Below, in pieces: positions 9,566 to 64,000 of a stretch of DNA of 64,000 nucleotides. The notes beneath the pieces are model-generated. The model was not told the DNA's origin. It saw only the letters and a program-made list of their open reading frames with translations, and searched no databases. Numbering within the stretch: position 1 is the stretch's first letter; the number at the start of each line of letters is the position of its first letter. The DNA is from Candidatus Reidiella endopervernicosa (GTDB lineage Bacteria; Pseudomonadota; Gammaproteobacteria; GCF-013343005): positions 2,152,501-2,216,500 of the forward strand of contig NZ_CP054491.1 in NCBI RefSeq assembly GCF_013343005.1. Reading direction: 5' to 3'. The translations under genes and the position numbers were made by a program.

Positions 9566-9579
9566 TATTCAATCCGTCC

Positions 9580-43591: not shown

Positions 43592-43624
43592 CGTCTTAAC
43601 GACGACAAAACTGGAGATAGAGAG

Positions 43625-45292
43625 ATGAGAAACGTGTCAATTAAAGCAAGATTAATTGCGACGCTGCTTCTACTTAGTGTGCTCATGGTCGTTATTGGCT
43701 ACATGGGGCTTCACGGCATGGGGGAAAACATTGCTGGGCTTGAGAGTGTTTACAAGGATCGAGTCGTTCCGTTAAAGGACCTCAAGGTTATCGCAGATGA
43801 GTACGCGGTAAATGTCGTTGATACTGCTCACAAGGTCCGCAATGGCAACATCTCTCCTGATCAAGGTGTCAGGAATGTTCAATCTGCAGCCTCCACTATC
43901 AATTCAACCTGGGAGGCCTACCTCGGAACAGTCCTGGTTGAGGATGAGGAGCGACTGGTTGCTGAGATCAAACCGCTCAAGGTGATAGCCGATGAACATC
44001 TCGATGAGCTGATCGACTTTCTCAATCGTAACGATATGGAAGGGCTGTCGCAGTGGACAATCAGTGACCTGTATGACGGCATCGATCCTATATCAGAGAA
44101 GTTTGGTGAATTGATAGCTGTACAACTTGTTGTGGCAAAGCAAGTTTACGATGACGAGATTGTCGCTTATGAAGCTACTCGTAACTTTGCCATTGGACTG
44201 ATAGTACTCGGTCTGTTGGCAGCCTTAACCGTGGGCTGGATACTGGTTCGAGCAATCACCAAACCGCTTGGTATTGCTATTGAGGCCGCAGATGCGATCG
44301 CCAACGGTGATCTGACCAGAAACGTTGATGTGGTCAGCACCGATGAGACAGGACAGCTGTTGAGTGCGCTCAAGACCATGAACGAGAAACTGCACAGTGT
44401 GGTCAGTGAAGTACGAGAAGGCACCGATGTTATCGCTTCGGCCTCAAATGAAATCGCCATGGGTAACACCGATCTCAGTGCGCGTACCGAGGAACAGGCC
44501 TCCAGCCTGGAGGAGACTGCCTCCAGTATGGAAGAGATGACCTCAACGGTTAAACAGAATGCCGATAATGCCCGCCAGGCAAATCAGCTGGCTGCCAGCG
44601 CACGTGACCAGGCATCTGAAGGTGGAGAGGTCGTAGGAAACGCTGTCGCCGCGATGGCAGAGATCAACACCGCGAGTAAGAAGATTGCCGATATCATCAG
44701 CGTCATTGATGAGATCGCTTTCCAGACCAACCTGTTAGCACTGAATGCAGCGGTTGAGGCAGCACGTGCCGGAGAGCAGGGGCGAGGCTTCGCAGTAGTC
44801 GCCGGTGAGGTACGAACATTGGCGCAGCGAAGTGCCGAAGCCGCTAAAGAGATTAAGATCCTCATTGAAGACAGCGTTAACAAGGTGGAGCAGGGCTCTG
44901 CACTTGTTGATGAGTCGGGTAGAACCCTTGAGGGTATTGTCGATTCGGTGAAGAAGGTGACCGATATAGTCTCTGAGATTGCTGCGGCAAGTTCAGAACA
45001 GGCCTCAGGCATCGATCAGATCAATAACGCGATTACACAGATGGATGATGTAACCCAACAGAATGCCGCATTGGTAGAAGAGGCAGCAGCGGCAAGTAAG
45101 TCGATGGAGGATCAAGCCAGCAACCTGATCAGCCAGGTTTCATTCTTCAATGTTGGCGGCCATGCCGCATCACGCCCCAAGGCTCAAAATCGTCCCACAT
45201 CGCGACCAGCAAAACGTGCTCCTGCTCCGAGAAGCCAGACAGAACCTGCTGCCGCTAAAGCCGACTCTGATGATGAGTGGGAGGAGTTTTAG
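43625..45292 (+). CDS. methyl-accepting chemotaxis protein with four-helix-bundle sensor
   Basis: This 555-residue receptor has a first helix near 8-28, a periplasmic four-helix-bundle-type sensor (about 30-190), a second helix (AIGLIVLGLLAALTVGWILV), HAMP and the MCP domain. From about residue 280 it is nearly identical in protein sequence to the MCP just upstream, and it shares the DDEWEEF tail. The pair looks like a duplication with sensor replacement or conversion of the signalling half. A 33-bp gap and GGAGATAGAG site suggest co-expression. The ligand is unknown. Confidence 0.93.
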   Translation: MRNVSIKARLIATLLLLSVLMVVIGYMGLHGMGENIAGLESVYKDRVVPLKDLKVIADEYAVNVVDTAHKVRNGNISPDQGVRNVQSAASTINSTWEAYLGTVLVEDEERLVAEIKPLKVIADEHLDELIDFLNRNDMEGLSQWTISDLYDGIDPISEKFGELIAVQLVVAKQVYDDEIVAYEATRNFAIGLIVLGLLAALTVGWILVRAITKPLGIAIEAADAIANGDLTRNVDVVSTDETGQLLSALKTMNEKLHSVVSEVREGTDVIASASNEIAMGNTDLSARTEEQASSLEETASSMEEMTSTVKQNADNARQANQLAASARDQASEGGEVVGNAVAAMAEINTASKKIADIISVIDEIAFQTNLLALNAAVEAARAGEQGRGFAVVAGEVRTLAQRSAEAAKEIKILIEDSVNKVEQGSALVDESGRTLEGIVDSVKKVTDIVSEIAAASSEQASGIDQINNAITQMDDVTQQNAALVEEAAAASKSMEDQASNLISQVSFFNVGGHAASRPKAQNRPTSRPAKRAPAPRSQTEPAAAKADSDDEWEEF

Positions 45293-45313
45293 TACAACCG
45301 TATCGGGGTTCGG

Positions 45314-45335
45314 ATATGGCCGGTCAAGGCCATAT
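45314..45335 (+). terminator. hairpin between MCP and cheR
   Basis: ATATGGCC (45314-45321) and GGCCATAT (45328-45335) form a perfect 8-bp stem with loop GGTCAA. A run of seven T follows only at 45352-45358, 16 bases after the stem. It may be a weak terminator, an attenuator or a processing site. Confidence 0.4.
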
Positions 45336-45398
45336 TGAGAGCGATCTTCAGTTTTTTTCTGGTTAGATAGTTGATCTACCAGTAGCAGGTGATCCAGC

Positions 45399-46271
45399 TT
45401 GGCTTCAATTGCCACTAATAGAGCTGCGGATGGAAAGGAGTTCGGTTTTACTGACCAGAATTTCCATGCTATCCAGCAATTGGTCGGGGAACGGACTGGG
45501 ATTGTTCTCTCCGATGCTAAACGCGATATGGTCTACAGCCGGCTGGTTCGGCGGCTTAGGCAGTTGGGTCATGATAGTTTCGATAGCTATCTCGAGATGT
45601 TGGGAAGTGACCCAGGCGATGAGATGGGGCACTTTATCAATGCGATCACTACCAATCTCACCTCCTTTTTTCGTGAGAACCATCATTTCGAATTCCTGAG
45701 AGAGACATTGCTACCGGCCTTGCTGGAGGCGCACAAAATAACGCGTCGTATACGTATCTGGTCGGCGGGTTGTTCGACAGGCGAAGAGCCCTATTCGATT
45801 GCCATGACGGTGCGTGAGTTGATCCCTGAAAGTAGCGGCTGGGATATCAAAATATTAGCAACTGACCTGGACTCGAATGTAGTAGCAACGGCCAAACGAG
45901 GGGTTTATAGCGAAGATCGAATAAGTGGTATCCCGAAACAGAGACTCAAACGCTGGTTTCTAAGAGGTAAGGGTGAGAAGAGCGATCAGGTGCGTGTGCG
46001 AAGTGAGCTGCGCGACATGATCTCTTTTCGCCAACTCAACCTACTTCACGACTGGCCCTTCAAGGGGCCTTTGGATTTTATCTTTTGCCGTAACGTGGTT
46101 ATTTACTTCAACAAGGATACCCAGCGCAAACTGTTTGATCGTTATAGCAGGGTGCTCGCCGAGGATGGACACCTTTTCGTGGGCCACTCTGAATCGCTAT
46201 ATAAAGTGACAGACCGCTTTCACCTGCTCGGTAACACGATTTACCAGAAGGCAGAGGAGAGTAAGGGGTAA
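45399..46271 (+). CDS. cheR: chemotaxis protein methyltransferase CheR
   Basis: CheR methylates receptor glutamates using S-adenosylmethionine. The 290-residue protein has the N-terminal alpha domain, TTNLTSFFRENHHFEFL, the SAM-binding motif RIWSAGCSTGEEPYSIAM, and FIFCRNVVIYFNKDTQ. The start is taken as TTG 45399 with AGGTG upstream, since no in-frame ATG gives the full alpha domain. Its stop overlaps the cheD start (TAATG). The W-x-x-F tails of the two preceding MCPs are its expected docking sites. Confidence 0.93.
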   Translation: MASIATNRAADGKEFGFTDQNFHAIQQLVGERTGIVLSDAKRDMVYSRLVRRLRQLGHDSFDSYLEMLGSDPGDEMGHFINAITTNLTSFFRENHHFEFLRETLLPALLEAHKITRRIRIWSAGCSTGEEPYSIAMTVRELIPESSGWDIKILATDLDSNVVATAKRGVYSEDRISGIPKQRLKRWFLRGKGEKSDQVRVRSELRDMISFRQLNLLHDWPFKGPLDFIFCRNVVIYFNKDTQRKLFDRYSRVLAEDGHLFVGHSESLYKVTDRFHLLGNTIYQKAEESKG

Positions 46272-46924
46272 TGCATGAAAACTACTCCACTACCAGCTCT
46301 CCCCGAATGCCACGTTCACTGCCAGGATTCGAGGATGTCAAACGCTATTGGGATAAGACCAACGATATTTTTTCAGCAAAGATATTGCCGGGTGAATTCT
46401 ATGTAACGGCCAATGATGAGCTGATTACCACCGTGCTCGGTTCATGTGTCTCCGTATGTATACGTGATCGGATCTTTGGCATCGGGGGTATGAACCACTT
46501 TATGTTACCGCACGATAATTCGGGGACCGGCTCGTGGGTCGCAAGCGATAATGTCAGCGTCTCTACTCGCTATGGTACCTATGCGATGGAGCACATGATC
46601 AACGAAATACTCAAGAACGGTGGCAATCGGAAGAATTTTGAGGTCAAGGTCTTCGGTGGTGGCCGTATTCTGGCCAACATGACTGACGTGGGAATTAAGA
46701 ATATCAACTTTATTCATCACTTTTTACAGACCGAGTGTCTGGATATATTGTCCGAGGATGTGGGGGATATATATCCACGCAAAGTCGTCTTTTTCCCCAA
46801 AACAGGCAAAGCACGAGTTAAGAAACTGAAATCGCTGCATAACGATACGATCATCAAGCGTGAAGAGGCGTATATACACGATATCGATACACAGCCTATT
46901 ACAGGCGAAGTGGAGTTGTTCTGA
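46271..46924 (+). CDS. cheD: chemoreceptor glutamine deamidase CheD
   Basis: CheD deamidates receptor glutamines. The 217-residue protein has the catalytic Cys/His region TTVLGSCVSVCIRDRIFGIGG with NHFMLP following, and VFGGGRILANM. An N-terminal extension of about 55 residues precedes the core. The C-terminus ends GEVELF, resembling the GDIELF tails of two MCPs in the window. ATG 46271 overlaps the cheR stop. It precedes cheB by 45 bp. No lesions are visible. Confidence 0.94.
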   Translation: MHENYSTTSSPRMPRSLPGFEDVKRYWDKTNDIFSAKILPGEFYVTANDELITTVLGSCVSVCIRDRIFGIGGMNHFMLPHDNSGTGSWVASDNVSVSTRYGTYAMEHMINEILKNGGNRKNFEVKVFGGGRILANMTDVGIKNINFIHHFLQTECLDILSEDVGDIYPRKVVFFPKTGKARVKKLKSLHNDTIIKREEAYIHDIDTQPITGEVELF

Positions 46925-46969
46925 CGTTATGGCCACCTCGTATCACAATAGAAATGAGTTTGAAAAAGT

Positions 46970-48070
46970 ATGATCAAGGTCTTGATAGTCGACGATTCAG
47001 CGTTAATTCGTCAGGTGCTGAGAGAGATATTGGATGCTGATCCTGAGATTGAAGTGGTCGGAGCGGCAGTTGATCCCTATGACGCACGCGACAAAATCAA
47101 GGCGCTTAATCCCGATGTTTTGACGCTTGATGTAGAGATGCCGCGCATGGATGGCATTACCTTTCTCAAAAACTTGATGCGCTTAAGACCCATGCCGGTC
47201 GTCATGATTTCAACCCTGACCGAGCAGGGTGCGAGCGTGACCCTACAGGCGCTGGAGTTTGGTGCGGTCGATTTCATCAGTAAGCCGAAGCTGGACGTTT
47301 CTCAATCGATCGCAGAGTACGCTGAGGTGATTGTTGAGAAGGTTAAGGCGGCTGCTAGTGCCTCAATGCTGGTGCTTGGTCGGGCATCAAGAGAGACTAA
47401 GCCGCAGGGCGCAGCAGGGCAAGCACAGAGGCATATTAGGTCACTCGCAGCGGGTGCGGCGTATCAAGCAACGCATCGTTTGATCGCGATCGGCGCATCT
47501 ACCGGTGGTACTGAGGCGATCAAAGAGGTGTTGGAGGTGATGCCGGCCGATGCCCCCGGAACAGTGATTACTCAGCATATTCCTGCCATGTTCAGTAAAT
47601 CCTTCTCAGAACGGCTAGATTCACTCTCGGCGATGAAGGTCAAAGAGGCAGAGAATGGTGATTATGTATTACCGGGTCACGCCTTCGTTGCACCCGGCGA
47701 CTACCATATGGAGGTTAATCGAGATGGCGCAAGGTATGTGATTAGCCTCAATCAGAGTGACCCCGTAAACCGTCATCGTCCGGCCGTCGATGTGATGATG
47801 AATTCTGTGGCACGCAATGTGGGTAGTAACGCCATTGGCGTGATACTGACAGGCATGGGTGCTGATGGTGCTGCTGCAGGCATGCGTCAGATGCATGATG
47901 CGGGTGCGCCTACCATCGCTCAGGATGAGAAGAGTTGTGTGGTTTGGGGAATGCCTAAGGAGGCGGTCAACAAGGGAGGTGTCGATTTTGTGCTGCCGTT
48001 GAACAAGGTGGCGGACAAACTCCTTGATCTGGCTGCAGAAGTACCCAAATCGGCCGATAGAAATGGGTAA
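46970..48070 (+). CDS. cheB: chemotaxis methylesterase/response regulator CheB
   Basis: CheB removes receptor methyl groups when phosphorylated by CheA. Residues 1-120 are a receiver domain ([29 protein letters not shown]). The C-terminal methylesterase carries the triad regions [11 protein letters not shown] (Ser), TQHIPAMFS (His) and [11 protein letters not shown]-type sequence (here [13 protein letters not shown], Asp). At 366 residues the length is normal. A direct-repeat stretch lies just after the stop. No lesions are visible. Confidence 0.95.
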
Positions 48071-49913: not shown

Positions 49914-52696
49914 GTGGTCGATAACATAACCGAAAGTGGAAATCGTGCGTTGCAGACACTAAGTGCCTGCAATGAGGCAGTCATCCGTTCTAAAACTGAG
50001 GCTGAACTGTTTAGCAATATCTGTGAGGTTATCACCCATAGTGGTGGCTATCGCATGGCATGGGTAGGTACCGTTCAACACGATATCAATAAATCTATCT
50101 TGCCTGTGGCAAAGTCGGGGTTTGAGGATGGCTATCTTGAGAGTGCGAACCTTACCTGGGCCGAATATGCTCGTGGTCAGGGACCGGGTGGGTTAGCGAT
50201 TCGGAACCTTCAACCCGCCATCATCAGGGACGTGCAGACAGATGAGCGGTTTGCACCGTGGCGTGAGCAGGCGACATCACGCGGTTACGCCTCAGTAATA
50301 GGTCTACCGTTGATTGAGGAGGGCGTAGCCTTTGGTGTCTTATTAATCTACGCCTCTGAGAACGATGCCTTTGATAGTGATGAGGTCTCACTCCTGGTGC
50401 GCCTTAGTGACAATCTGGCCTTTGGCGTAACGGCGATAAGAAATCGGCTTGAGCGACGTACTACGGAGCAGGCGCTAAAGGCGAGTGAAGAGAGCCTCAG
50501 AGAGACTCAACATATCACCCACCTGGGTAGCTGGGTCTGGTCCAAACAGACCAGTGAGATGCGTTGGTCCGATGAGATTTTCCTGATCTTCGGCTTTTTA
50601 CCGGTCTCTATCAAACGCTGACCGCCATGGATAGCGAAGTGAGGGCGGTTAGTCCCCGATAGTCGACGCCGTCTGCCTATTCGTAGTTGAGAGCGCGAGC
50701 GAACGACGAAGAAGATGCAGCAGCGGCTTTATGTCGGCGTAGAGTCAGTGAGGAGTTGTGTAGAGCCGCGAAGAGGTGATTACGCAACGAACGCAGGACG
50801 GTCGGGGCGCCGTAGGCATAAACGGTCGCGTTAAGTATTTGCCGCTTGCTTGGGCTTGGAGGCCCAAAACAAGCTTCCGCAAAAATAGCGACTCCCCGGC
50901 CATCCTTCGAAACACTGCTCGCAATCGTTCAACCCAGAGATCGGCAGGTGGTTATGAAGGCCATCGAAAACACTCGAAAACATTATCTACCACTCGATAT
51001 CGAATTCAGGGTTGAGCGACGTGATGTCGGTGAGCGTACCGTTATCATGCGTGGACACGTCCATTTTGACGACAATGGCCGACTCTCACATATCATGGGT
51101 ACCATTCAGGATATCAGTGAGCAGACGAGTAACGAACGACAACTGCTGCTACAGAGAGCGGTGCTTGAATCGACGGACGATGCTGTCCTTATTACTGACG
51201 GTGAAGGTGTCATCGAGTGGGCTAACTCAGCAACGGAGAGGGTAACCGGATATGCGCTTGATGAGATGGTCGGGCAGACCCCGCGACTTCTTAAATCGGG
51301 CTCCCAAAGCGAAGCGTTTTATAACCAGCTGTGGGGAGTGATAACCACTGGGGAGTCGTGGCAGGGCGAGATGATTAATCGCCGTAAGGATGGTGCGCTC
51401 TACCATGAGGAGCAGACCATCACGCCGGTGATCAATAAGCGGGGGGAGATTACCCATTTTGTTGCTATAAAGCGCGATGTCAGTAAGCGCAAAGCGATGG
51501 AGCGTGAACAGCGTGAAGTGGAGAAACAGCTAAAGCAGGCTCAGAAGATGGAGGCGATTGGTCAGCTCACGGGAGGTATTGCACACGACTTTAACAATAT
51601 TCTTGCCAGCATCATGGGATACACCAGTCTCGCATTGGCCAGATTTACAAAGTCTCAAGACGAAAGCAGCAATAAACTTGCAGAGTATTTAAATCGTATA
51701 GATCAGGCGAGTCGACGTGCGCGTGATCTGATTGCACAGATGCTGGCATTCAGTCGTGCTGGTACAAGTGAGCCAAGGTCTCTGCCAGCGGCGCCGTTGG
51801 TCAAAGAGGCGATATCGCTACTGCGATCGACAATCCCTAGCAATATTACTATCGCGCTTAGCCTTGATGAGGATCTTCCACCGATTAACTTTGATCCGAT
51901 TCAATTCCATCAGGTGATTATGAACCTCTGTATCAATGCCCGAGATGCGATCGCAGAGAGTGGCTGTATTGATGTAAAACTCAACTTAACAACAATTGTT
52001 AATGATAGTTGTGCCTCTTGCCAGAGTGGTGTTTCTGGTGACTATGTGGAGCTCTCCGTTAGTGATAGTGGTAGTGGTATTGATCCTGAAAATTTAATGC
52101 GTGTTTTCGACCCCTTTTTTACCACCAAGGAGGTGGGTAAGGGGAGTGGCATGGGGCTCTCTATGGTGCATGGCATCGTGCACGAATATGGCGGACATAT
52201 TCTGGTCAATACGAAACCCGAGGGTGGAACTGACTTTAGGGTGTTGGTCCCAGCGTCAGCGGTGAATGACTCGGAAGAACTCAGTGTGCCCACCCAGTCA
52301 ATTGTTGATGGAGTCGTTACACCAGCCCGAATACTATTGGTCAACGATGATCACTCCGTTGCAGGTTTTATTGCGGAGCTACTGGAAAGTATCGGCTATC
52401 AGGTGGTTGTCACCACTGAAGAGAAGCAGATTGTTGATAGTGCACGTGAGCAGCTTAAGCATATCGATCTCCTCATTGCTGACTATGCAATACCGGGCAT
52501 GACCGGGGTCGAGCTGGCCAAGGATCTACGTCAGCAACGAGAAGATCTGCCGGTACTCATTCTGTGCAGCGGTAACTCTGAACAGCCTCAATCGCCCGAG
52601 TGGCTAGAGAACCCACTCAACGGCTTTGTACGAAAACCGATCGATAACCAGCTGCTGTTATCGACTATTAGAAAACTACTCGACGGTGACGATTAG
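49914..52696 (+). pseudogene. GAF-PAS-PAS hybrid histidine kinase, interrupted by repeat element F
   Basis: With repeat F (50616-50899, 284 bp) removed, the protein is 832 residues. It has a GAF domain (about 12-185), a PAS domain (195-310) that holds the insertion point after residue 234, and a second PAS (320-440, DDAVLITDGEGVIEWAN). A HisKA domain has its histidine in GGIAHDFNNILA near 462, followed by HATPase (NLCINARDAI, FFTTKEVGKGSGMGLSMV). A C-terminal receiver has aspartate in LLIADYAIPGMTG. The insertion falls between codons and separates FLPVSIK from PSFETLL. Both halves are intact. As written, translation ends in the repeat and the kinase half would be unexpressed. The GTG start at 49914 lacks a strong ribosome site. 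Confidence 0.88.
50616..50899 (+). mobile_element. gene-interrupting repeat, copy F (in hybrid kinase, sense)
   Basis: This 284-bp copy begins CGCTGACCGCC and ends AGCGACTCCCCGG, with flanks ATCAAA and CCATCC and no target duplication. Its 3' hairpin has GCTTG (50844-50848) with CAAGC (50870-50874), like copy D, so D and F form one subfamily and B, C and E another. Its hairpin loop is TTGGAG instead of TTGGAT. Confidence 0.88.
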
Positions 52697-52718: not shown

Positions 52719-55136
52719 TTAGAAATCGATTCTATAGCCGGCCGTCAGGTAGTAGCCGTGTGTATTGGTGGTATCGCTAGCCAGCTGCTCGGTCGACCAG
52801 TCACCACTCGCCTCCAGTTCAAAGTGAATACGACGTTTCCAACGGTAGTCCATACGGACCGCCGGTGAGAGGGTCCACTGGGTTCGGCCATCGTTTTTAT
52901 TGTCGCGGTAACTCAGTTTCACACGCGGATTGAGGCGCCAGTTACTGGTGATTGGATAACGGGTGTTGAGCAACATCGTGGTGGTACTCGAGGTGCTACC
53001 GTCGGCAAAGCGTAGGCCGAGTACGGCCGTATCGCCTTGTTTGATCAGATTACTGCCCATCAACTGCATGTTGTAGTAGTACTCGTTACCGGTTCCCGGT
53101 ATCGCCTCAACTCCGCCTGATGCGGGCGTCCCCTGTAGGTTGGTGGCGGTGATGTCGGCGTTGAGCTGAACCTGCTCTGAGATCGGCGTGGAGAAACCGA
53201 ATACTGCAGTGTTACTACGTGCAGTACGATCAACTGCCAATTGGCGAATCTCCGACTCGGTGAAGCTGCTGAGCAGCTGTTCAACACCCTCGACCAGCTG
53301 TCCCTGAATTGCATTGCGAGTGGTAAGAATCGGCGTGAGACGGTGGTCGAGTGTGAGATTGATGTTGCTGTGGGAGCCGATCTTCCAGTTGCCCAGCAGC
53401 ATCACGGTGTTGAGCTCGTCGTAGGAGATGTCGTAGTCGACCAGTCCTAGTAGTGAACGCTCAGGGTGGAAGTAGCGCAGCTCGGCACCGACGGCACGTC
53501 GATCGGTAATGTCGGCAACACGCTGCTCGATGATAAAGGGGCTGAAGTCCCAGGCGTTAAAGAAGGTGCCAAGGTCGATACTCGCACCGACAAAATTGCG
53601 GTCTGTGGTGAGGGGATCAGAGGTACGATCGACCGGGAAGCCTGCAACCATGTTGAGCTTGCCCCAAGAGGTGGCCTGATAGCTGAGCAGGCCACCATCG
53701 AAACGTCCCAATACACCGCCACTACTGCGAGTCTGACGCCCAACGCGACCGCTAAGCCCGGATGGTTTGTGACTGGCTTCAGCGTAGAGAGAGCTGATAC
53801 GGCTCTCGTTATCTTCACCATCATTAAGGAAATCGTGCAGATATCCACCAGTAAAACGGGTGCGGAACTCGCTATCATGACTGCGCCTGCGACTGGTGAC
53901 ATCAAGGTCGGTGGAGAGTGAGGACTGGTTAACCGTCGACTCCTCCTCATCAATGCTGTTGATGTCACGTCGATAGTATTGAGAGAAACCACCAAACAGA
54001 GTCCACTGCGCCTCATCAATGGTACGTTTTCCCTTGGCCGCACGCAGGCTCTCCTTGGGGCGGTCGGGGGCACTGATCAGTGCTGCTAGACGCTGTCGCA
54101 CACGCTCAGCTGGCTCTCCCTCTGGATAGAGCGAGAGGTACTGCTCATAGGCTGCCTTGGCCTGAGCCAGCTGTCCGTTACGCTCACGCGCACTTCCAAG
54201 CAACTCCAGTGCCTGCTGTCCCTTTGGATTCTCTTTATGTTCGATCAGACGCGCATAGATACGGATGGCACGACCGTAGTCGCTGCCCAACATCGCCTTG
54301 CGAGCCTCCTCCATCAGCGATTCGATACGCTCAAGCGGCAAAGGCGGTCGGGTGGCCAAGGGGGTTGCGACAGGTTTCACAGCGGCTGTTTCCGTCTTCT
54401 TCTCGACCTCGCTCTGACTGGCGCGGGCAACCCACGCCTTGGGATAATTGGCAGTGAGCTGCTTGAGCATCTCGCTGGCCTCACTACGGGTGGCAAAAAA
54501 GCCGAGGCGCAGGCGATACCAGGTACGCTGATTCTGTTCAAAATCGACCACATAGGCCTGTCGCCTGGCGTGCTGTTTGAGGCTGGCGTGATCTGCCAGA
54601 TCGATTGGCTTGAGTGAAGACTCGAGGTTGATCACATAGGGGAGGGAAACCAGTGTCGCTGCTTTGCTGGTCGATGGCTTAGGTGTGGCTGATGTCACTC
54701 GTGGTAGTCGGATCGTCAGACCCTGCATGTCGGGATCAGGATTGACCTCGTAGTCGGTTACGCGGCTGAAACTGACAATCAGAGTGTAGTCATCCTGACC
54801 GCGTCCTTCGTAACGTACCTCGTCCAGTGGCACATCGCGACTCGAATCCCAGGTGACCTGCTCCTCGCCAATTAACATGTTATCGCTATCGATGCGTATA
54901 TCTCGCGGGCGCAGACTGATCTGCAGCTCCTTGCCATGGCTATGGGGTGCATGAGAGAGATACTGCATCGCGGTGCTGAAGCGGATCTGCAGTGTGACGG
55001 AGGATTGTTCGACCGTTGGCAGGATATCCTCAATCATCCGCACCTCAGCAGCGGCGCTGCCGATGTTGATCAGCAGCAGCGGAAGTAGGAGTGCTACAGC
55101 GAGTAGTGTTCTAAGGCGTTGGATAGTTATATACAT
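52719..55136 (-). CDS. SPOR-TPR protein with C-terminal outer-membrane beta-barrel
   Basis: A signal peptide (about 1-30, ending SAAAEV) is followed by an AMIN-like beta domain, a SPOR-like domain (about 165-235: YRLRLGFFATRSEASEMLKQL), and TPR helices (about 270-345). From about 375 to the end there are alternating polar/apolar strands typical of an outer-membrane barrel. The last residues, YRIDF, end in phenylalanine as barrel proteins do. It is the last gene of the multihaem cytochrome operon, 19 bp after the largest cytochrome. I infer an outer-membrane partner for the cytochromes, in the role MtrB/PioB plays elsewhere, though it is not recognisably MtrB. Confidence 0.78.
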   Translation of the reverse strand: MYITIQRLRTLLAVALLLPLLLINIGSAAAEVRMIEDILPTVEQSSVTLQIRFSTAMQYLSHAPHSHGKELQISLRPRDIRIDSDNMLIGEEQVTWDSSRDVPLDEVRYEGRGQDDYTLIVSFSRVTDYEVNPDPDMQGLTIRLPRVTSATPKPSTSKAATLVSLPYVINLESSLKPIDLADHASLKQHARRQAYVVDFEQNQRTWYRLRLGFFATRSEASEMLKQLTANYPKAWVARASQSEVEKKTETAAVKPVATPLATRPPLPLERIESLMEEARKAMLGSDYGRAIRIYARLIEHKENPKGQQALELLGSARERNGQLAQAKAAYEQYLSLYPEGEPAERVRQRLAALISAPDRPKESLRAAKGKRTIDEAQWTLFGGFSQYYRRDINSIDEEESTVNQSSLSTDLDVTSRRRSHDSEFRTRFTGGYLHDFLNDGEDNESRISSLYAEASHKPSGLSGRVGRQTRSSGGVLGRFDGGLLSYQATSWGKLNMVAGFPVDRTSDPLTTDRNFVGASIDLGTFFNAWDFSPFIIEQRVADITDRRAVGAELRYFHPERSLLGLVDYDISYDELNTVMLLGNWKIGSHSNINLTLDHRLTPILTTRNAIQGQLVEGVEQLLSSFTESEIRQLAVDRTARSNTAVFGFSTPISEQVQLNADITATNLQGTPASGGVEAIPGTGNEYYYNMQLMGSNLIKQGDTAVLGLRFADGSTSSTTTMLLNTRYPITSNWRLNPRVKLSYRDNKNDGRTQWTLSPAVRMDYRWKRRIHFELEASGDWSTEQLASDTTNTHGYYLTAGYRIDF

Positions 55137-55155: not shown

Positions 55156-58100
55156 TTAATCGAAAGATGAGTCGCTGACGCGATGCTCGCCAGACTCACG
55201 TTCTTTTATCGTGCTCATCGAACTATTGGTGTAGACGTGACAACTACCACTGCAGTCGCGCAGTTCGCTCACTGAGTAGTAGCCATCGGGATTCTCATGC
55301 TTCTTGTGCTCATCGCGCTCGTAATCACCCGCATGGCAGCCTGCGCAATCGGGTTTATAGGCACCGCTGCTCCAGGTCACCTGTTCACTATTGGAGCGGT
55401 GGCAGCTGCTGCAGCTGAGGTTGCCACGATGGTCGCCAGGGTAGGCGGCTGAACTGTGACGGAAGGTGGTCGGTGTCCAACTCGTATTGCGATGGCAACT
55501 ATCGCAGCTCTGGCTGGTAATGAAGTGACTACTGGGTTTGCCCGGTGCTGAAACACCGTTATGACAGCTGGTACAGCTTCCGCTGACATCGTCATGGCTG
55601 AAGGTTGCCGGCAACCAGGCTCGAATGGTGTGGCAGATATCACACTGGGCGCTGGTGGTGATATGGGTCAGCGGTTTTCCGCTTGAAGTGACTCCGTTAT
55701 GACAGCTACTACAGGTGCCAGCTGAGACCTGATTGTGATCAAACAGTGCCGGTGTCCAGCCGTTGGTGCTGTGGCAGTCATCACAGCTATTGCCGCTGGG
55801 CAGGTGATTGACCGGTTTGCCAAGTGCCGTAGAGCCGTTGTGACAGCTTGAACAGGTGCCTAGTACAGAGAGGTGTTCAACGCGAATCACCGGCGACCAG
55901 CTACGGTTGCTGTGGCACTCCTCACAGCTATTGGTAGTGCTGATGTGCTGAGTGTTCTTACCGGTTGCTGAGACGCCGTTATGGCAGCTCGAACAGCTGG
56001 CGCTCACACTGCTGTGATCAAAGTTGGCCGGTGACCAAGCGTTGCTGGTATGGCAGTCATCACAACTATTACTGCTAGCAATGTGGTTGGAAGGTTTACC
56101 CAACGCGGTGGAGCCGTTATGACAACTGGAGCAGGTGCCGAGTACGGCCAAGTGCTCAACCCGAATCACCGGTGACCAGCTGCGGTTGGAGTGGCACTCG
56201 TCGCAGCTGTTGGTCGAGCTGATGTGTTGCGCCGTTTTCCCGGTGGCTGAGACACCGTTGTGACAACTCGAACAGCTAGCGGTCACTGCAGAGTGATCGA
56301 AGTTCGCAGGGCTCCAGGCGTTGCTGCTGTGGCAATCATCACAGCTATTACCACTGACAATATGGTTAGACGGTTTACCGAGTGCCGTGGAACCGTTGTG
56401 ACAACTTGAGCAGCTACCCACCACGGCGAGATGTTCGACGCGGATAACTGGCGACCAGCTACGATTACCGTGGCACTCGTCACAGCTGTTGGTAGAGGCG
56501 ATATGTTGCACCGATTTGCCGGTTGCACTCACGCCGTTATGACAGCTACTGCAGCTGGCAGAGACTGTCGAGTGGTCAAAGTTGGCGGGACTCCAGGCGT
56601 TGCTGGTATGGCAGTCGTCACAGCTATTGCCACTGGTTATGTGATTTGACGGTTTGCCGAGGGCTGTAGAACCGTTGTGACAACTTGAGCAGCTACCAAC
56701 GACGGCGAGATGCTCCACGCGGATCACTGGCGACCAGCTACGGTTGCCGTGACACTCCTCACAGCTGTTGGTAGTGGCAATGTGTTGAACGTTTTTACCC
56801 GTCGCTGAAACACCGTTATGACAGCTGCTGCAGCTCGCTGAGACCGTTGAATGATCGAAGTTGGCCGGGCTCCATGCGCTACTGGTGTGGCAGTCATCAC
56901 AGCTGTTACCGCTAGCAATATGATTCGAAGGTTTGCCTGGTGCCGTCGAGCCGTTGTGGCAGCTGGAACAGCTACCGGTGACGGCCAGATGTTCAACACG
57001 GATCACCGGTGACCAGCTGCGGTTGGAGTGACACTCTGCGCAACTGTTGGTACTCGAGATGTGTTGTACGTTTTTACCTGTGGCCGAGACACCGTTATGA
57101 CAGCTCGAGCAGCTGGCAGTCACACTGTTGTGATCAAAATTGGCCGGAGACCAGACGCTGCTGGTATGACAGTCGTCACAGCTGTTACCACTCGTAATGT
57201 GGTTGGACGGTTTGCCGAGGGCGGTGGAACCGTTGTGGCAACTGGAACAGGTTCCAAGTACCGCCAGATGTTCGACACGGATCACCGGTGACCAGCTGCG
57301 GTTGCCGTGGCACTCGGCGCAACTATTTGTCGAACTGATGTGTTGGGTATTTTTCCCAGTTGCCGAGACGCCGTTATGACAGCTTGAACAGCTGGCGGTC
57401 ACGCTGGAGTGGTCGAAGTTGGCCGGGCTCCACGCAGTGGTCGAGTGACAGTCACTGCAGCTGCTGTTGCTCGGTATATGGTTTGAGCTTTTACCCAGTG
57501 CGGTTGCGCCGTTGTGACAGCTTGAGCAGGTACCGGTCACCGCCAGATGCTCGACGCGAATCACCGGTGACCAGCTGCGGTTACTGTGACACTCCTCGCA
57601 GGCGTTGGTGGTTGTGATGTGTTGTGGCGTCTTCCCTTCGGCGCTGGTTCCGTTATGACAGCTAGAGCAACTGCCACTGACGTTGGAGTGGTCGAAGTTG
57701 GCGGGCGACCATGCCGAGGTGGAGTGACAGTCGCTACAATTATTGCCGCTTGTGATGTGGTTCGAGGATTTACCGAGTGCTGTGGCACCGTTATGACAGC
57801 TGGAGCAGGTACCGGTCACCGCCAGATGTTCAACCCGGATCACCGGTGACCAGCCACGGTTAGAGTGACAATCCTCACAGACGTTGGTGGTGCTGAGGTG
57901 CTGCGTGCTCTTACCCGTCGCCGAGACACCGTTGTGGCAACTCAAACAGCTGGCGGTAATGGCAGAGTGATCTAAGTTGGCTGGCGACCAGGCGTTACTG
58001 GTGTGGCAGTCGTCGCAGCTATTACCACTGGCGATATGGTTGGACGGTTTACCCAGCGCCGTGGCACCGTTGTGACAGCTCGAGCAGCTCCCCTGTACTG

Positions 58101-60240
58101 CCAGGTGGTCAACACGAATTACCGGTGACCAGCTACGGTTGGAGTGGCAATCCTGACAGCTGCTGGTGGAGCCGATGTGACCACTGTTCTTTCCGGTGGC
58201 AGAGCTACCGTTGTGACAGCTGGAACAGCTACTGGTCACCGCGTCGTGATCGAAATTGGCCGGGCTCCATGCCGTGCTGGTGTGGCAGTCGTCACAGCTA
58301 TTACTGCTTACGATGTGGTTGGCGGTTTTACCCAGTGCGGTCGAGCCGTTATGGCAGCTACTACAGGTTCCCGAGACGGCCAGATGTTCGACTCGAATCA
58401 CAGGCGACCAGCTACGGTTGGAGTGGCACTCGCCACAGGCATTCGTAGTCGCGATGTGTTGGCTCGTTTTTCCACTTGCCGAGATGCCGTTATGACAGCT
58501 GCTACAGGTGCCAGAAGCGTTTGAGTGGTCAAAGTTCGCAGGGGACCATGCCGTTGTTGAATGGCAATCGCTACAACTACTACTGCTTGGGATGTGGTTG
58601 GATGATTTGCCCAACGCAGTCGAGCCGTTGTGACAGCTACTACAGGTGCCGCTGACGGCCAGATGATCAACGCGAATCACGGGTGACCAGTTGCGGCTGT
58701 TATGGCACGACTCACAGCTGCTATTACTGGCGATATGCTGTGAGGTTTTACCCGTTGCCGAACTCCCGTTGTGACAACTCGAGCAGCTACCCGAGGCATT
58801 GGAGTGGTCGAAATTGGCCGGGCTCCAGGCGTTGCTGGTATGGCAGTCGCTGCAGACGCTGCCACTGGGGATATGGTTGTTTGTCTTGCCGGGAGCGGTG
58901 GTGTCGTTGTGGCAGCTCGAGCAGCTACCGTTCACCGCCAGGTGATCGACCTTGATGGCGGGTGACCAGTCGCGGTTGGAGTGGCAGCTCTCACAGCTAT
59001 TGTTCGTTGCCAGATGCAACACCGTTTTCCCAGTTGCCGAGATGCCGTTGTGACAGCTACTGCAGCTCCCTGAGATAGAGGCGTGATCGAAATCAGCCGG
59101 TAGCCATCCACTGCTGCTGTGGCAGTCGTCGCAGCTATTACTACTGGCAATATGGTTGGCCGGTTTACCGAGAGCAGCAGCGTTGTTGTGACAGCTTGAG
59201 CAGGTGCCGGTCACAGCCAGATGCTCAACCTTGATTACCGGTGACCAGCTGCGGTTGGAGTGACACTCCTCACAGACGCTGGTGGTAGAGAGGTGTTGTG
59301 TCGTTTTGCCGGTGGCCGAGACGCCGTTGTGGCAGCTAGAACAGCTGCTGGTAATAACGCTGTGGTCGAAGTCGGCCGGTGTCCAGGCGCTGCTGGTATG
59401 ACAGTCGTCGCAACTGTTGCTACTGGCGATATGGTTGGCTGGCTTACCAAGTGCCGTTGAATTGTTGTGACAGCTAGAGCAGGTGCCGAGCACAGCGAGG
59501 TGGTCGACACGAATCGCAGGCGACCAGCCTCGTGTGGCGTGGCAGGTTTCACAGCTATTGGTGGTGGCTATGTGACGGCTCGATTTTCCATCGGTGATCA
59601 CGCCGTTGTGGCAGCTAGTACAGTTCCCCTCAATACCGGTGTGATCAAAGGTGGTCGGACTCCAGGCGGTAGTGGTGTGACAATCGTTGCAGCTGTTATC
59701 ACTACTGACATGGTTGATTGATTTACCCTCAGCGGTAACGCCGTTATGACAACTGAGGCAGGAAGCGGTAATGCCTACATGATTGAAACGGGCCGGTGTC
59801 CAGGCGGTGGAGGAGTGACAGTCACTACAGCTACTGGAGCTGCTGACGTGGTTGATTGATTTGCCGGTTGCGTTGCTACCGTTGTGACAGCTGGTGCAGT
59901 TGCCCACCACCGCCAGATGATCGACCTCACGCGCGGGTGACCAGCCGCTGCTGCTGTGGCAACTGTCACAGCGACTGCTAGTCGGAAAGTGTTTTGCGTG
60001 TTTGGCCGAGGCCTGCACACGGCCGGTGCTGCCGTGGCAACCGCTGCAGGTTGTCGGTGCCGATCTAAACTCCCCATTGAGGTGACAGCTGGTGCAGCTG
60101 GTGGTGGCATGTGCGCCATCGAGTGAAAAGCCTGTAGTGAAGTGGTCGAATGCCGCATTGTTGGCCGCCTGAGTCGTTACCGTGAATAGCAGCATTAGCG
60201 CCAACACAATCGTACGAGCGATGTTCACTGGGTTTGGCAT
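55156..60240 (-). CDS. giant multihaem cytochrome c, about 69 CxxCH motifs
   Basis: After a signal peptide (MPNPVNIARTIVLALMLLFT and the next residues) the protein is almost wholly made of a repeat of about 98 residues with four CxxCH sites. The pattern is CSSCHNG-x-ATGK-HI-CxxCH-SNRSWSPVIRVEHL-CSSCHNG-x-ALGK-NH-CDDCH-AWSPANFDH. By hand I count 69 CxxCH and one CxxxCH (CSGSCH near the C-terminus). Histidines in the NH, EHL/DHL and FDH positions are likely distal haem ligands. The C-terminal 200 residues are nearly the same as in the next cytochrome. The ATG at 60240 is chosen because the signal peptide starts there. It is probably exported and long-range electron-conducting; the partner is unknown. 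Confidence 0.9.
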   Translation of the reverse strand: MPNPVNIARTIVLALMLLFTVTTQAANNAAFDHFTTGFSLDGAHATTSCTSCHLNGEFRSAPTTCSGCHGSTGRVQASAKHAKHFPTSSRCDSCHSSSGWSPAREVDHLAVVGNCTSCHNGSNATGKSINHVSSSSSCSDCHSSTAWTPARFNHVGITASCLSCHNGVTAEGKSINHVSSDNSCNDCHTTTAWSPTTFDHTGIEGNCTSCHNGVITDGKSSRHIATTNSCETCHATRGWSPAIRVDHLAVLGTCSSCHNNSTALGKPANHIASSNSCDDCHTSSAWTPADFDHSVITSSCSSCHNGVSATGKTTQHLSTTSVCEECHSNRSWSPVIKVEHLAVTGTCSSCHNNAAALGKPANHIASSNSCDDCHSSSGWLPADFDHASISGSCSSCHNGISATGKTVLHLATNNSCESCHSNRDWSPAIKVDHLAVNGSCSSCHNDTTAPGKTNNHIPSGSVCSDCHTSNAWSPANFDHSNASGSCSSCHNGSSATGKTSQHIASNSSCESCHNSRNWSPVIRVDHLAVSGTCSSCHNGSTALGKSSNHIPSSSSCSDCHSTTAWSPANFDHSNASGTCSSCHNGISASGKTSQHIATTNACGECHSNRSWSPVIRVEHLAVSGTCSSCHNGSTALGKTANHIVSSNSCDDCHTSTAWSPANFDHDAVTSSCSSCHNGSSATGKNSGHIGSTSSCQDCHSNRSWSPVIRVDHLAVQGSCSSCHNGATALGKPSNHIASGNSCDDCHTSNAWSPANLDHSAITASCLSCHNGVSATGKSTQHLSTTNVCEDCHSNRGWSPVIRVEHLAVTGTCSSCHNGATALGKSSNHITSGNNCSDCHSTSAWSPANFDHSNVSGSCSSCHNGTSAEGKTPQHITTTNACEECHSNRSWSPVIRVEHLAVTGTCSSCHNGATALGKSSNHIPSNSSCSDCHSTTAWSPANFDHSSVTASCSSCHNGVSATGKNTQHISSTNSCAECHGNRSWSPVIRVEHLAVLGTCSSCHNGSTALGKPSNHITSGNSCDDCHTSSVWSPANFDHNSVTASCSSCHNGVSATGKNVQHISSTNSCAECHSNRSWSPVIRVEHLAVTGSCSSCHNGSTAPGKPSNHIASGNSCDDCHTSSAWSPANFDHSTVSASCSSCHNGVSATGKNVQHIATTNSCEECHGNRSWSPVIRVEHLAVVGSCSSCHNGSTALGKPSNHITSGNSCDDCHTSNAWSPANFDHSTVSASCSSCHNGVSATGKSVQHIASTNSCDECHGNRSWSPVIRVEHLAVVGSCSSCHNGSTALGKPSNHIVSGNSCDDCHSSNAWSPANFDHSAVTASCSSCHNGVSATGKTAQHISSTNSCDECHSNRSWSPVIRVEHLAVLGTCSSCHNGSTALGKPSNHIASSNSCDDCHTSNAWSPANFDHSSVSASCSSCHNGVSATGKNTQHISTTNSCEECHSNRSWSPVIRVEHLSVLGTCSSCHNGSTALGKPVNHLPSGNSCDDCHSTNGWTPALFDHNQVSAGTCSSCHNGVTSSGKPLTHITTSAQCDICHTIRAWLPATFSHDDVSGSCTSCHNGVSAPGKPSSHFITSQSCDSCHRNTSWTPTTFRHSSAAYPGDHRGNLSCSSCHRSNSEQVTWSSGAYKPDCAGCHAGDYERDEHKKHENPDGYYSVSELRDCSGSCHVYTNSSMSTIKERESGEHRVSDSSFD

Positions 60241-60262: not shown

Positions 60263-62173
60263 TTAGTCAAAATCGGAATCGCTGACGCGGTGTTCGCTCG
60301 AGCGCCGCTTTTTAATGCTTGTCATCGAACTGTTGGTATAGACGTGACAGCTACCCGAGCAGTCGCGTAGCTCACTCACCGAGTAGTAACTGTCGGGGTT
60401 CTCATACTTCTTGTGTTCATCACGCTCATAGTCACCCGCGTGGCAGCCAGCGCAGTCGGGTTTATAGGCGCCGCTCGACCAGGTGACCTGTTCGCTATTA
60501 CTGCGGTGGCAACTGGTGCAGCTGAGGTTGCCACGGTGGTCGCCAGGGTAGGCGGCTGAGTTGTGACGGAACGTCGTGGGTGTCCAGCTGCTATTGCGAT
60601 GACAGCTATCGCAGCCCTGACTGGTGACAAAGTGATTGCTCGGCTTGCCCGGTGCTGAGGTGCCGTTATGACAACTGGCACAGCTACCGGTGACGTCATC
60701 ATGGTTGAAAATCGCCGGTAACCAGGCACGGATAGAGTGGCAGATGTCGCACTGTGCTGAGGTCTGTAGATGGGTTAGCGGTTTACCGGTCGCAGTTAGC
60801 CCGTTGTGGCAACTGCTGCAGGTGCCGGGCGAGACCTGATTGTGATCAAACAGCGCCGGTGTCCAGGCGTTGGTGTTGTGGCAGTCGTCGCAACTGTTAC
60901 CGCTGCTGAGATGGTTGGCCGGTTTGCCAGCGGCAGTGGAGCCGTTATGACAGCTTGAACAGCTGCCGGTGACTGAGAGGTGGTCAACTCGAATCACCGG
61001 CGACCAGCTACGATTGGTGTGGCAATCCTCACAGCTATTGGTGGTGGCGATGTGGCGTGTGTTCTTGCCCGTTGCCGTGGTGCCGTTGTGACAGCTGATG
61101 CAGTTGGATGAGACGCTGGAGTGGTCGAATCCGGCCGGACTCCAGGCGCTAGTGGAGTGACAGTCGTCGCAACCACTACCGCTGGCAATGTGGTTGGCTG
61201 GTTTACCCTCGGCAGTGGAGCCGTTGTGACAGCTTGAGCAGCTGCCGGTCACGGCCAGGTGGTCGATACGGATTACAGGCGACCAGCTGCGGTTGCTGTG
61301 ACAATCCTCGCAGCTATTGGTTGAAGCGATGTGGCGTACGTTTTTACCGGTGGCTGCAATGCCGTTATGACAGCTTGAGCAGCTGCCAGTGGCGTTATCG
61401 TGATCGAAATTGGCCGGGCTCCAGGCGTTGGTCGAATGACAGTCATCGCAGCTGCTGCCACTGGTAATGTGGTTAGCGGTTTTACCCGTGGCGGTCGAGC
61501 CGTTATGGCAGCTTGAGCAGCTACCGAGCACGGCCAGATGATCGACGCGAATCACAGGCGACCAGTCGCGGCTTGAGTGACACTCCTCACAGGCGTTGGT
61601 GGTACTCATGTGACGCACCCCTTTGCCCTCAGCCGTCACTCCGTTATGGCAGCTGCTGCAGCTGGCGGTGATGTCGATATGGTTAAAACGGGCCGGGCTC
61701 CAGGCGGTGGAGGAGTGGCAATCGCTGCAGTTACTCGAGCTGCTGACGTGATTGAACGTTTTCCCTTCAGCGCTGCCGCCGTTGTGACAGCTGCTGCAGC
61801 TACCCAGAACCGAGAGATGATCGACCTGACGCACAGGAGACCAGCCGCTGCTGCTGTGACAGTCATCGCAGCTGGAGCTGGTGGAGATATGGCGTGCATC
61901 CTTGCTCGAAGCCTTGATCCGACTGCCGCTGGAGTGACAGCTGCTACAGCGTGTCGGAGCCCCTTTGAACTCACCGCCGATGTGGCAACTGGTGCAGTTG
62001 GTCGAGGCGTGTGCTCCTTCGAGTGGGAAGCCGGTGGTGAAGTGGTCAAAACGCTCTGCGGCGGCAATGGAGGGGAGGAAGACGAGTAGCAGTAGCATCA
62101 GCACCATCAGCAGTATGTGGTGAAGTGACTCGGTCGATAGTTGGCGAATCAGTTTTTGTATTCCGATATCCAT
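60263..62173 (-). CDS. multihaem cytochrome c, about 23 CxxCH motifs
   Basis: This paralogue of the giant cytochrome has the same repeat, fewer copies and nearly the same ends. It has a signal peptide (HHILLMVLMLLLLVFLPSIAAA), the start FDHFTTGFPLEGAHASTNC, and the end RDCSGSCHVYTNSSM...EHRVSDSDFD. I count 23 CxxCH plus one CxxxCH in about 636 residues. ATG 62173 with GGGAG five bases upstream is preferred over GTG 62179. It lies 13 bp after the 21-haem gene. The giant gene probably arose from such a unit by internal amplification. Heme attachment needs Ccm proteins encoded elsewhere. Confidence 0.9.
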   Translation of the reverse strand: MDIGIQKLIRQLSTESLHHILLMVLMLLLLVFLPSIAAAERFDHFTTGFPLEGAHASTNCTSCHIGGEFKGAPTRCSSCHSSGSRIKASSKDARHISTSSSCDDCHSSSGWSPVRQVDHLSVLGSCSSCHNGGSAEGKTFNHVSSSSNCSDCHSSTAWSPARFNHIDITASCSSCHNGVTAEGKGVRHMSTTNACEECHSSRDWSPVIRVDHLAVLGSCSSCHNGSTATGKTANHITSGSSCDDCHSTNAWSPANFDHDNATGSCSSCHNGIAATGKNVRHIASTNSCEDCHSNRSWSPVIRIDHLAVTGSCSSCHNGSTAEGKPANHIASGSGCDDCHSTSAWSPAGFDHSSVSSNCISCHNGTTATGKNTRHIATTNSCEDCHTNRSWSPVIRVDHLSVTGSCSSCHNGSTAAGKPANHLSSGNSCDDCHNTNAWTPALFDHNQVSPGTCSSCHNGLTATGKPLTHLQTSAQCDICHSIRAWLPAIFNHDDVTGSCASCHNGTSAPGKPSNHFVTSQGCDSCHRNSSWTPTTFRHNSAAYPGDHRGNLSCTSCHRSNSEQVTWSSGAYKPDCAGCHAGDYERDEHKKYENPDSYYSVSELRDCSGSCHVYTNSSMTSIKKRRSSEHRVSDSDFD

Positions 62174-62185
62174 AATCACTCCCGG

Positions 62186-63772
62186 CTACTGCCGCGGCAG
62201 AACGATCTCTTCAAATTGAGTCGGCAGGTGACACTGCTCACACTGCTTGCCGAATGTGCCCCAGTGGGCATCCTCGTCGCGATGACAGCTGATGCAGCGA
62301 CGTGGCTCTGCGCGCTGCTCGGTGACCGGATCGATATGACACGCCTCACACTTGAGGCCGCGATGCGAACCCTCGAGTCGGTATTTGGTCTGGGTGTCGT
62401 GATCGAAGAGCCATAGCTTCCAGTCGTTGGGGTTGTGGCAACTGGCGCACTGTTTACCGAGCAGTCCCTCGTGGCTGTCATCCTGTTGATGACAGGCGTA
62501 ACAGTCGCGTTCGGTCTGCTGATAACTCCGGTCGAGATGACACTCACCACAGGGGGTGGTGGTGTGCAGGCCGATCAGGGGAAAGCGGGTCAGGTCGTGG
62601 TCGAAGGCGATCTTCTTGCGCCAGTTATCACTGTTGTGGCACTGCTGGCACTCTTTACCTAGTTTGCCACCGTGTGGATCATCAACCTTGTGACAGGAGG
62701 TGCAGCTCTTTTCTGGCTTCTTCTCAAACAGCCCCGCCTGATGGCAACTGCTACAACTTAGATCACCATGTTTTCCATCCAGTGAGAACTTGGTGTCGCG
62801 TTGATGATCAAACCTGGTCTTGCTCCAGCTCTCGTTGTTGTGGCACTTGTCGCACTTCTCACCAAAACTGCCGCGGTGTCGATCACGCTGCTGATGGCAG
62901 GCGATACAGGTTTTACCCGGGTTGCCCTTGTTATCGGCCCGGTTGAGTTTGCTGTTGTGGCAGCTGTTACAGGCGAGTTTGGTGTGCACGCCACGGAGTG
63001 GGAATTCGGTTTTTTTGTCGTGATTGAACTCTCCCTTCTCCCACTTCTCGTTGTTATGGCAGCTCTCACACTTTTCCCCAAAACCACCCAGATGGATGTC
63101 GTTGATCTGGTGGCAGGCGATGCACTGCTTGGGTGTCTTTTTATAGCGTTGATCGATGTGGCAGCTGTTACAGCTCGCCTTCTTATGTGCGCCCTTGAGC
63201 TTGAAGTCACTTTTGTCGTGGTCAAAACGATTCTTCTGCCAGCCTGTAGTTGAGTGACAGTCGTTACACTTCTTGCCCAGATTACCGCGATGTGGGTCGT
63301 CGCTTTTATGGCAGTCGATACAGAGCTGAGGCGTGTCGCGGTGTTTGCGATCTTTGGGGTGACAGGCGATACAGGCGACCTGTTGGTGACGCTTTTCGAG
63401 TTTGTAGTCGGTCAGGTCGTGATCAAAACCGTGTGGATCGAGGTGTACGATCTTTTTGTCACGCCCCTTGTGATCGGTATGGCAACTGCGGCAGGCGGTT
63501 TCGCCTACCGCGCTATCGAGACCGTGGTATCCCTCATCTTTGTTGATGTCGGCCGCCACCTTCTCGTGGCAGTCGAGACAGAGCGTGCGCTGTTCATCCT
63601 TGCTGAAGTTGGCGTGGCAGCGTTCACACTGCTCCTCATACTTGGCGTGTCCCTCGATCACCTTGCCCGGCATCAACAGGGTTTCGAACGAGGCGGCCCA
63701 TAGCGGACTGGAGCCGAGCAGCAACAGTGCAAACAGAAAAATCTCGCCAATGTTGTTGGGCATATTGCTCAT
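62186..63772 (-). CDS. multihaem cytochrome c, about 21 CxxCH motifs, Lys-rich
   Basis: A signal peptide (FLFALLLLGSSPLWA) is followed by about 500 residues with 21 CxxCH sites. The repeat differs from its two neighbours: CxxCH-x-D-DPHRGxLGKKCxxCH-xxxW-FDHD-xxF-L-GxHxxxxCxxCH, with many Lys and Asp residues in place of Ser and Asn. This is the cytochrome c3/c7-like pattern seen in periplasmic or surface electron carriers. Its ATG overlaps the stop of the upstream membrane protein (TGATG). I infer a periplasmic link between an inner-membrane donor or acceptor and the larger cytochromes. Confidence 0.9.
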   Translation of the reverse strand: MSNMPNNIGEIFLFALLLLGSSPLWAASFETLLMPGKVIEGHAKYEEQCERCHANFSKDEQRTLCLDCHEKVAADINKDEGYHGLDSAVGETACRSCHTDHKGRDKKIVHLDPHGFDHDLTDYKLEKRHQQVACIACHPKDRKHRDTPQLCIDCHKSDDPHRGNLGKKCNDCHSTTGWQKNRFDHDKSDFKLKGAHKKASCNSCHIDQRYKKTPKQCIACHQINDIHLGGFGEKCESCHNNEKWEKGEFNHDKKTEFPLRGVHTKLACNSCHNSKLNRADNKGNPGKTCIACHQQRDRHRGSFGEKCDKCHNNESWSKTRFDHQRDTKFSLDGKHGDLSCSSCHQAGLFEKKPEKSCTSCHKVDDPHGGKLGKECQQCHNSDNWRKKIAFDHDLTRFPLIGLHTTTPCGECHLDRSYQQTERDCYACHQQDDSHEGLLGKQCASCHNPNDWKLWLFDHDTQTKYRLEGSHRGLKCEACHIDPVTEQRAEPRRCISCHRDEDAHWGTFGKQCEQCHLPTQFEEIVLPRQ

Positions 63773-64000
63773 CAGTACATGTGCACTGCGACGATATGGA
63801 CGATGCCGGCCACGACCATCATCAGGAAGAAGGGGAGGTGGAAGAGGTGCCAGAGGGCGAATAGGCGTTCAAAAACGTTTAACTGCACGACTTTGCGTGC
63901 AGTGTGGAAGAAAGCGGTTGTCTCGCGAATACTCTCTCGTCTTCTTTGTCGCTGCTCCGGGCGACTCCAGCCCTGTTTGGCAGCGACTGCCTTGATCGAT
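63772..64000 (-). CDS. C-terminal part of a membrane protein (cut by window end)
   Basis: The frame enters at 64000 and ends with TGA at 63772-63774, giving the last 75 residues. A basic stretch (RPEQRQRRRESIRE) is followed by FERLFALWHLFHLPFFLMMVVAGIVH and IVAVHMY, one long hydrophobic segment with several histidines that could ligate haem b. It overlaps the 21-haem cytochrome gene by one base, so it is in the same operon. I infer an inner-membrane b-type cytochrome or related quinone-linked protein; the full gene is needed to name it. Confidence 0.6.
   Translation of the reverse strand, partial: SIKAVAAKQGWSRPEQRQRRRESIRETTAFFHTARKVVQLNVFERLFALWHLFHLPFFLMMVVAGIVHIVAVHMY

Follow-up and report, generated by a model that had tools for sequence, protein, structure and literature searches.

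OmcS, OmcE and OmcZ of Geobacter are extracellular haem wires. The porin-cytochrome c cluster PCC3, described by He et al. (2017; PMC5566968), is a system described from iron oxidisers (PMC5566968, PMC10734462). Its extracellular cytochromes carry, for example, 63 haems in Amphritea and 85 in Agromonas, its periplasmic cytochromes have a median of 21 haems, the ratio of residues to haems ranges from 22 to 39, and its inner-membrane protein of approximately 300 residues combines five transmembrane helices with an SGXXG motif and two WX3HX13H motifs (PMC5566968). Both PCC3 clusters of Sideroxydans ES-1 are down on Fe(II) (PMC8788666) and PCC3 in CL21 is expressed regardless of iron oxidation (PMC12442390), observations that together disfavour a simple iron-oxidase role; PCC3 function has been called untested (PMC12442390). 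Among archaea, a cytochrome with 113 haems has been reported from Candidatus Methanoperedens (Methanoperedenaceae), and an earlier large example with 69 haems is cited for HGW-Methanoperedenaceae-1 (Leu et al., 2020; PMC7082337).

Here we analyse a window of 64,000 nucleotides (the whole stretch of DNA under study, positions 2152501-2216500 of a genome represented by a single contig of 3,446,950 bases at 100% completeness) whose minus strand carries an operon with the composition of PCC3.

A cytochrome with 69 haem-binding motifs

The largest cytochrome gene of the window, gene A, forms a single open frame of 5 kb that extends from an ATG at position 60240 to a stop codon at 55156-55158 and encodes 1694 amino acids. 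Its features are as follows:

55156..60240, minus strand: gene A, predicted extracellular multihaem cytochrome with 69 CxxCH motifs (Pfam Cytochrome_C7, E = 2e-95; NCBIfam DmsE-family decahaem model, 297 bits)
60166..60240, minus strand: putative Sec-type signal peptide without a lipobox, residues 1-25, predicted from sequence
59761..60165, minus strand: N-terminal block, residues 26-160, haems 1-5, kept in relatives
55576..59760, minus strand: repeat array, residues 161-1555, made up of 15 tandem units of 93 residues with four haems each (haems 6-65, 60 in all)
55159..55575, minus strand: C-terminal block, residues 1556-1694, with the four final CxxCH motifs followed by CX3CH
55237..55254, minus strand: CSGSCH (CX3CH), residues 1663-1668, candidate 70th haem site

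The initial annotation of this frame had estimated approximately 69 haem motifs, and an automated count returns exactly 69 CxxCH, whereas residue-shuffled versions of the protein contain 0.95 on average and 6 at most. The same annotation had proposed a 98-residue repeat in about sixteen four-haem copies. Both figures require revision: the distances between successive motifs begin 16-26-24-23, then run almost exclusively 23-23-23-24 and end 23-31-22, which gives a period of 93 residues (279 nt, the value also returned by Tandem Repeats Finder), and there are 15 tandem units in addition to a five-haem N-terminal and a four-haem C-terminal cap. The half-units of each repeat, 46-47 residues long, are 44% identical to one another, and therefore the elementary unit comprises two haems and the superunit four. 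The CSGSCH sequence beginning at residue 1663 is a plausible 70th haem site, as CX3CH occupies this position in 33 of 56 family members and a longer spacing such as CX4CH is found in others.

Two further statements of the annotation, that the spacers are rich in serine and asparagine and that histidines recur regularly, are borne out by the composition (Ser 20.4%, Asn 8.0%) and by the 74 histidines lying outside CxxCH motifs, one of which occurs in nearly every inter-haem interval, at +16 or +17 in 66 of 68 cases. Across an alignment of 53 three-module segments, taken from this window and from relatives, all 12 CxxCH motifs and 12 distal histidines are invariant, with exactly one distal histidine per haem in every sequence. 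Bis-His ligation of every haem in the gene A protein is the natural inference from this invariance.

Age and integrity of the repeat array

Long tandem arrays are notoriously difficult to assemble, and collapse or expansion of the array had been named at the outset as the finding that would undermine its interpretation. Such an event is unlikely here, as the longest exact direct repeat within gene A is 32 nt and no two units share more than about 80% nucleotide identity (14 units compared). Unit divergence falls mostly on third codon positions (0.18, 0.19 and 0.51 for the first, second and third), and the median dN of 0.19 and median dS of approximately 1.9 yield a ratio near 0.09, the dS median deriving from 49 of 91 unit pairs and the remaining pairs being saturated or not computable. 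The repeats are thus under purifying selection. With synonymous sites saturated and the protein constrained, the copies are old and have been held to one protein sequence, rather than arising from recent slippage. Given this constraint, the uninterrupted 5-kb frame, and the dozens of independent assemblies that carry relatives of identical plan, the chance that gene A is an assembly or annotation artefact, with copies gained or lost or the frame unexpressed, is close to negligible.

An operon with the composition of PCC3

Gene A is the fourth of five genes, whose order in the direction of transcription is an inner-membrane cytochrome b-like protein, C (21 haems), B (23), A (69) and D, with successive gaps of -1 (a 1-nt overlap), 6, 22 and 19 nt. 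The remaining members are:

63772..64000, minus strand: 3′ part of the gene for a predicted inner-membrane di-haem-b-type protein, which runs beyond the window (whole gene, L078:272-1147)
62186..63772, minus strand: gene C, 21-haem cytochrome of 528 residues, predicted periplasmic partner
60263..62179, minus strand: gene B, 23-CxxCH paralogue of A, 638 residues, with a shorter repeat array and end blocks as in A
52719..55136, minus strand: gene D, predicted outer-membrane protein of 805 residues, with a beta-rich N-terminal domain, SPOR, TPR and a modelled 22-strand beta barrel

Haems 1-5 of B match haems 1-5 of A best and haems 16-21 of B match haems 62-67 of A, while the central part of B resembles many units of A to a similar degree, which indicates that A and B are paralogues differing in array length. 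The AlphaFold model of gene D (mean pLDDT 87.4) places 22 barrel strands within residues 377-804, ends in a C-terminal phenylalanine and matches solved outer-membrane barrels; MtrB is absent among the structural matches listed for it. A scan of gene D with the MtrB/PioB-family porin model (TIGR03509) likewise gave no match, nor did the genome in a search run without a positive control.

Judged from its sequence, the operon matches every published feature of PCC3. The porin gene directly follows A; the A protein, predicted from the operon to lie at the cell surface, has 24.6 residues per haem (69 CxxCH in 1694 residues); the 21 CxxCH motifs of gene C belong to a protein predicted to be periplasmic; and the inner-membrane protein of 291 residues has both WX3HX13H motifs, the sequence SGLIG, and about five hydrophobic segments by hydropathy. 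We found no second cytochrome cluster of PCC3 type elsewhere in the genome. Near the operon, a chemotaxis cluster (41531-48070, plus strand) encodes a receptor with a nitrate/nitrite-sensing NIT domain, further receptors and CheB. An Rfam scan of the window detected no RNA family.

Structural relatives and a proposed role in electron transfer

Gene A scores 297 bits against the NCBIfam DmsE-family decahaem model (cut-off 192), and its CxxCH motifs align in register with the solved chain 6r2q_A, which we take to be MtrA of an MtrCAB complex, across about 190 residues. MtrC, like 6r2q_A a multihaem wire protein, is also among the solved-structure sequence relatives. The best reading of these matches is that the A protein would consist of MtrA-like haem pairs strung together in a greatly lengthened series and situated outside the porin. 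In the plasmid collection there is a single distant match, from Emticicia (25.7% identity), and thus no evidence that gene A travels on plasmids.

We consider it likely that the gene A protein supplies the extracellular part of a PCC3 porin-cytochrome complex and operates as an electron wire. The inner-membrane cytochrome b-like protein would connect to the quinone pool by electron exchange, protein C with its 21 haems would bridge the periplasm and meet barrel D at its far end, and outside the cell B (23 haems) and A (69) would pass electrons to, or receive them from, a partner that is remote or solid, the electrons hopping along stacked bis-His haems in both proteins. B, sharing the end blocks of A, could be a short alternative or an inner segment at one porin. 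On this mechanism A is most likely a wire formed by one molecule, some 50-65 nm long should its haems have the spacing known from MtrA or OmcS, an estimate from familiar spacings rather than a computed length. The long, wire-like chain envisaged in the initial annotation accordingly retains the support of the motif register, the ratio of about 24 residues per haem, the invariant distal histidines and the complete porin-cytochrome operon. The check set for it beforehand, structure prediction of three consecutive modules, did not bear on haem spacing, as the AlphaFold model (53-row alignment, cofactors not included) reached a mean pLDDT of only 62 and a pTM of 0.30. A Foldseek search with this poor model returned nothing significant. 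A limited literature search found no experiment that shows electron transfer by PCC3, which counts against the wire reading, as does the lower expression of both Sideroxydans ES-1 clusters on Fe(II) (PMC8788666).

Cytochrome filaments of solved structure consist of haem modules arranged one after another, and the repeat architecture of A invites the idea that it builds micrometre-long filaments like those of OmcS or OmcE, the array being a filament subunit. This is improbable: OmcS-type subunits are small and identical, whereas the repeats of A form one covalent chain between distinct N- and C-terminal blocks that are kept across the family, and no filament cytochrome of solved structure was recognised among the sequence matches of gene A.

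For a single-molecule wire, the direction of flow can be considered in the light of the host, whose genome contains two RuBisCO genes, DsrA and SoxB, the gene content of an autotroph that oxidises sulfur. These genes tip the balance slightly towards electron uptake. Outward respiration, in which solid Fe(III) or Mn(IV), humics or partner cells would receive electrons from the complex, is possible, at rather less than even probability. The solved relatives MtrA and MtrC serve metal reduction and many of the relatives are Gammaproteobacteria of sediments, but the host's gene content and the description of PCC3 from iron oxidisers point the other way, and multihaem conduits can work in both directions.

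Haem number varies in steps of two among relatives

A scan of GTDB genomes recovered 70 loci, with all relatives belonging to families other than that of the host. The usual order in these loci is inner-membrane protein, 21-haem cytochrome, extracellular cytochrome and porin, and the porin adjoins the extracellular gene in 52 of the 56 cases with room for it. Complete extracellular frames of relatives contain 9 to 93 CxxCH, with counts of 93 (a Pseudorhodobacter MAG, L032), 73 (L040), 67 (L009) and 61 (two Thiodiazotropha MAGs). The count is odd in 55 of 56 complete frames (54 relatives together with A and B), which show about 20 different counts, all odd; the sequences are related, so these are not 55 independent trials. 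The sole even count, 20 in L054, comes from a frame that starts in masked sequence. The periplasmic partner, by comparison, has 21 haems in 46 loci and 20 or 24 in a few. The outer wire, as read from these genes, thus changes in two-haem steps and the periplasmic cytochrome is nearly fixed, and we infer that its near-constant 21 haems fit a fixed width of the periplasm.

The same data bear on a role as a capacitor, in which the A protein would serve mainly as an electron store, each molecule taking up to about 69, at times when the supply of a donor or acceptor is interrupted. Storage has been suggested for PCC3 cytochromes (PMC10734462), and it would suit both the extreme haem load and the wide variation in extracellular length beside a periplasmic protein that stays at 21 haems. 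We nevertheless regard storage as the less likely main function: across the family, 1,820 of about 2,050 CxxCH intervals are 23 or 24 residues long, a rigidity that exceeds what storage needs, and a protein that conducts may also store.

It is otherwise rare for two extracellular paralogues to stand in tandem at a single porin, the only other clear case among the loci of this set being L040 (WH4.bin33), where five successive multihaem cytochrome genes (595-18540) have 21, 23, 33, 73 and 37 CxxCH. The 73- and 37-haem proteins of that locus lack the usual C-terminal block and end instead in a long tail of polyproline and GGGHGGGH.

A conserved flavoprotein neighbour and an interspersed repeat

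In 40 of the 44 loci with enough flanking sequence, an FAD/4Fe-4S oxidoreductase with an N-terminal hydrophobic segment is encoded no more than 6 kb from the inner-membrane gene, divergently in 35; the main text of He et al. (2017; PMC5566968) makes no mention of FAD or ferredoxin. In two Rhodobacteraceae MAGs (L009 and L032, with 67 and 93 haems), the porin and the FAD/4Fe-4S gene are present with no adjoining 21-haem cytochrome, and the FAD gene lies beside apparent cytochrome c maturation genes, identified by eye.

The host copy of the FAD/4Fe-4S gene (L078:1406-3031; G000:C1:2217406-2219031) is split near codon 294 by a repeat element of approximately 283 nt, at a position where the homologues in L062 and L008 are continuous. 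The interrupted gene may be a pseudogene, or its RNA may be freed of the element; if the gene is needed, its interruption could mean that the PCC3 system is degrading in this host. The element occurs in about 327 copies (counted with two mismatches allowed; reversed control, zero) that are 92-98% identical and make up about 2.7% of the genome. It begins CGCTGACCGCC and ends AATAGCGACTCCCCG, has no obvious terminal inverted repeats and no Rfam match, and its first 140 nt have matches of 82-83% in two other gammaproteobacterial families. The copies in the window and in L078 are:

50616-50892, plus strand: element copy
34058-34334, plus strand: element copy
30588-30864, plus strand: element copy
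27688-27964, plus strand: element copy
37489-37765, minus strand: element copy
3281-3564, minus strand: element copy
L078:2285-2560: element copy
L078:5008-5284: element copy
L078:5643-5925: element copy

One copy also splits a PAS/histidine-kinase/response-regulator gene (49914-52696, plus strand), with stops in all frames of the element.

As a speculative extension of the wire model, which we advance tentatively, PCC3 might be a length-tunable conduit, with a fixed periplasmic ruler of 21 haems, outer wires that grow only in two-haem steps (9-93), two of them of unequal length (23 and 69) serving a single porin in this host, and the FAD/4Fe-4S oxidoreductase, anchored in the membrane, either as a partner on the cytoplasmic side or as a factor in maturation. 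In a limited literature search, we found no description of the parity rule, the short/long pair or the conserved flavoprotein neighbour. PCC3 clusters are widespread in Proteobacteria of sediments and symbioses, and certain of their products rank among the known bacterial proteins richest in haem. The complete genome studied here, in which a short and a long version occur together naturally, and the paired-haem rule provide handles on how wire length relates to the reach and rate of extracellular electron transfer.

Comparison with known systems

The first reading of this frame ranked it among the most haem-rich known. That holds, but cytochromes with 85 and 113 haems have been published and a relative described here has 93. 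Others of its kind thus came before the gene A protein and exceed it in size. The first reading named neither the surrounding operon nor PCC3. With PCC3 described in 2017 at up to 85 haems, and 113 reported in Methanoperedenaceae, it is a large addition to a known kind. In common with PCC3, the locus combines a porin, a large extracellular cytochrome, a 21-haem periplasmic cytochrome and an inner-membrane protein, at about 24 residues per haem and with repeats that each carry at least one haem (PMC5566968). It differs from PCC3 as published in having two tandem extracellular cytochromes (23 and 69 haems) rather than one, and from the main text of that description in the conserved FAD/4Fe-4S gene next door (PMC5566968).

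The DmsE-family match of 297 bits and the CxxCH register with 6r2q_A are likenesses to the MtrA/DmsE decahaem cytochromes of MtrCAB and MtoAB. The gene A protein, however, has 69 haems rather than 10 and about 24 rather than about 33 residues per haem, is predicted to lie outside the porin instead of inside it, and is paired with a porin for which the family scan gave no match to MtrB. The operon has no decahaem subunit like that of MtrCAB or MtoAB, its cytochromes carrying 21, 23 and 69 haems despite the DmsE-family match. With the 113-haem cytochrome of Candidatus Methanoperedens the protein shares an extreme haem number within one polypeptide; that protein is archaeal and belongs to another cell envelope. 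OmcS, OmcE and OmcZ of Geobacter, to which no sequence match was recognised, differ from it in being small subunits that polymerise.
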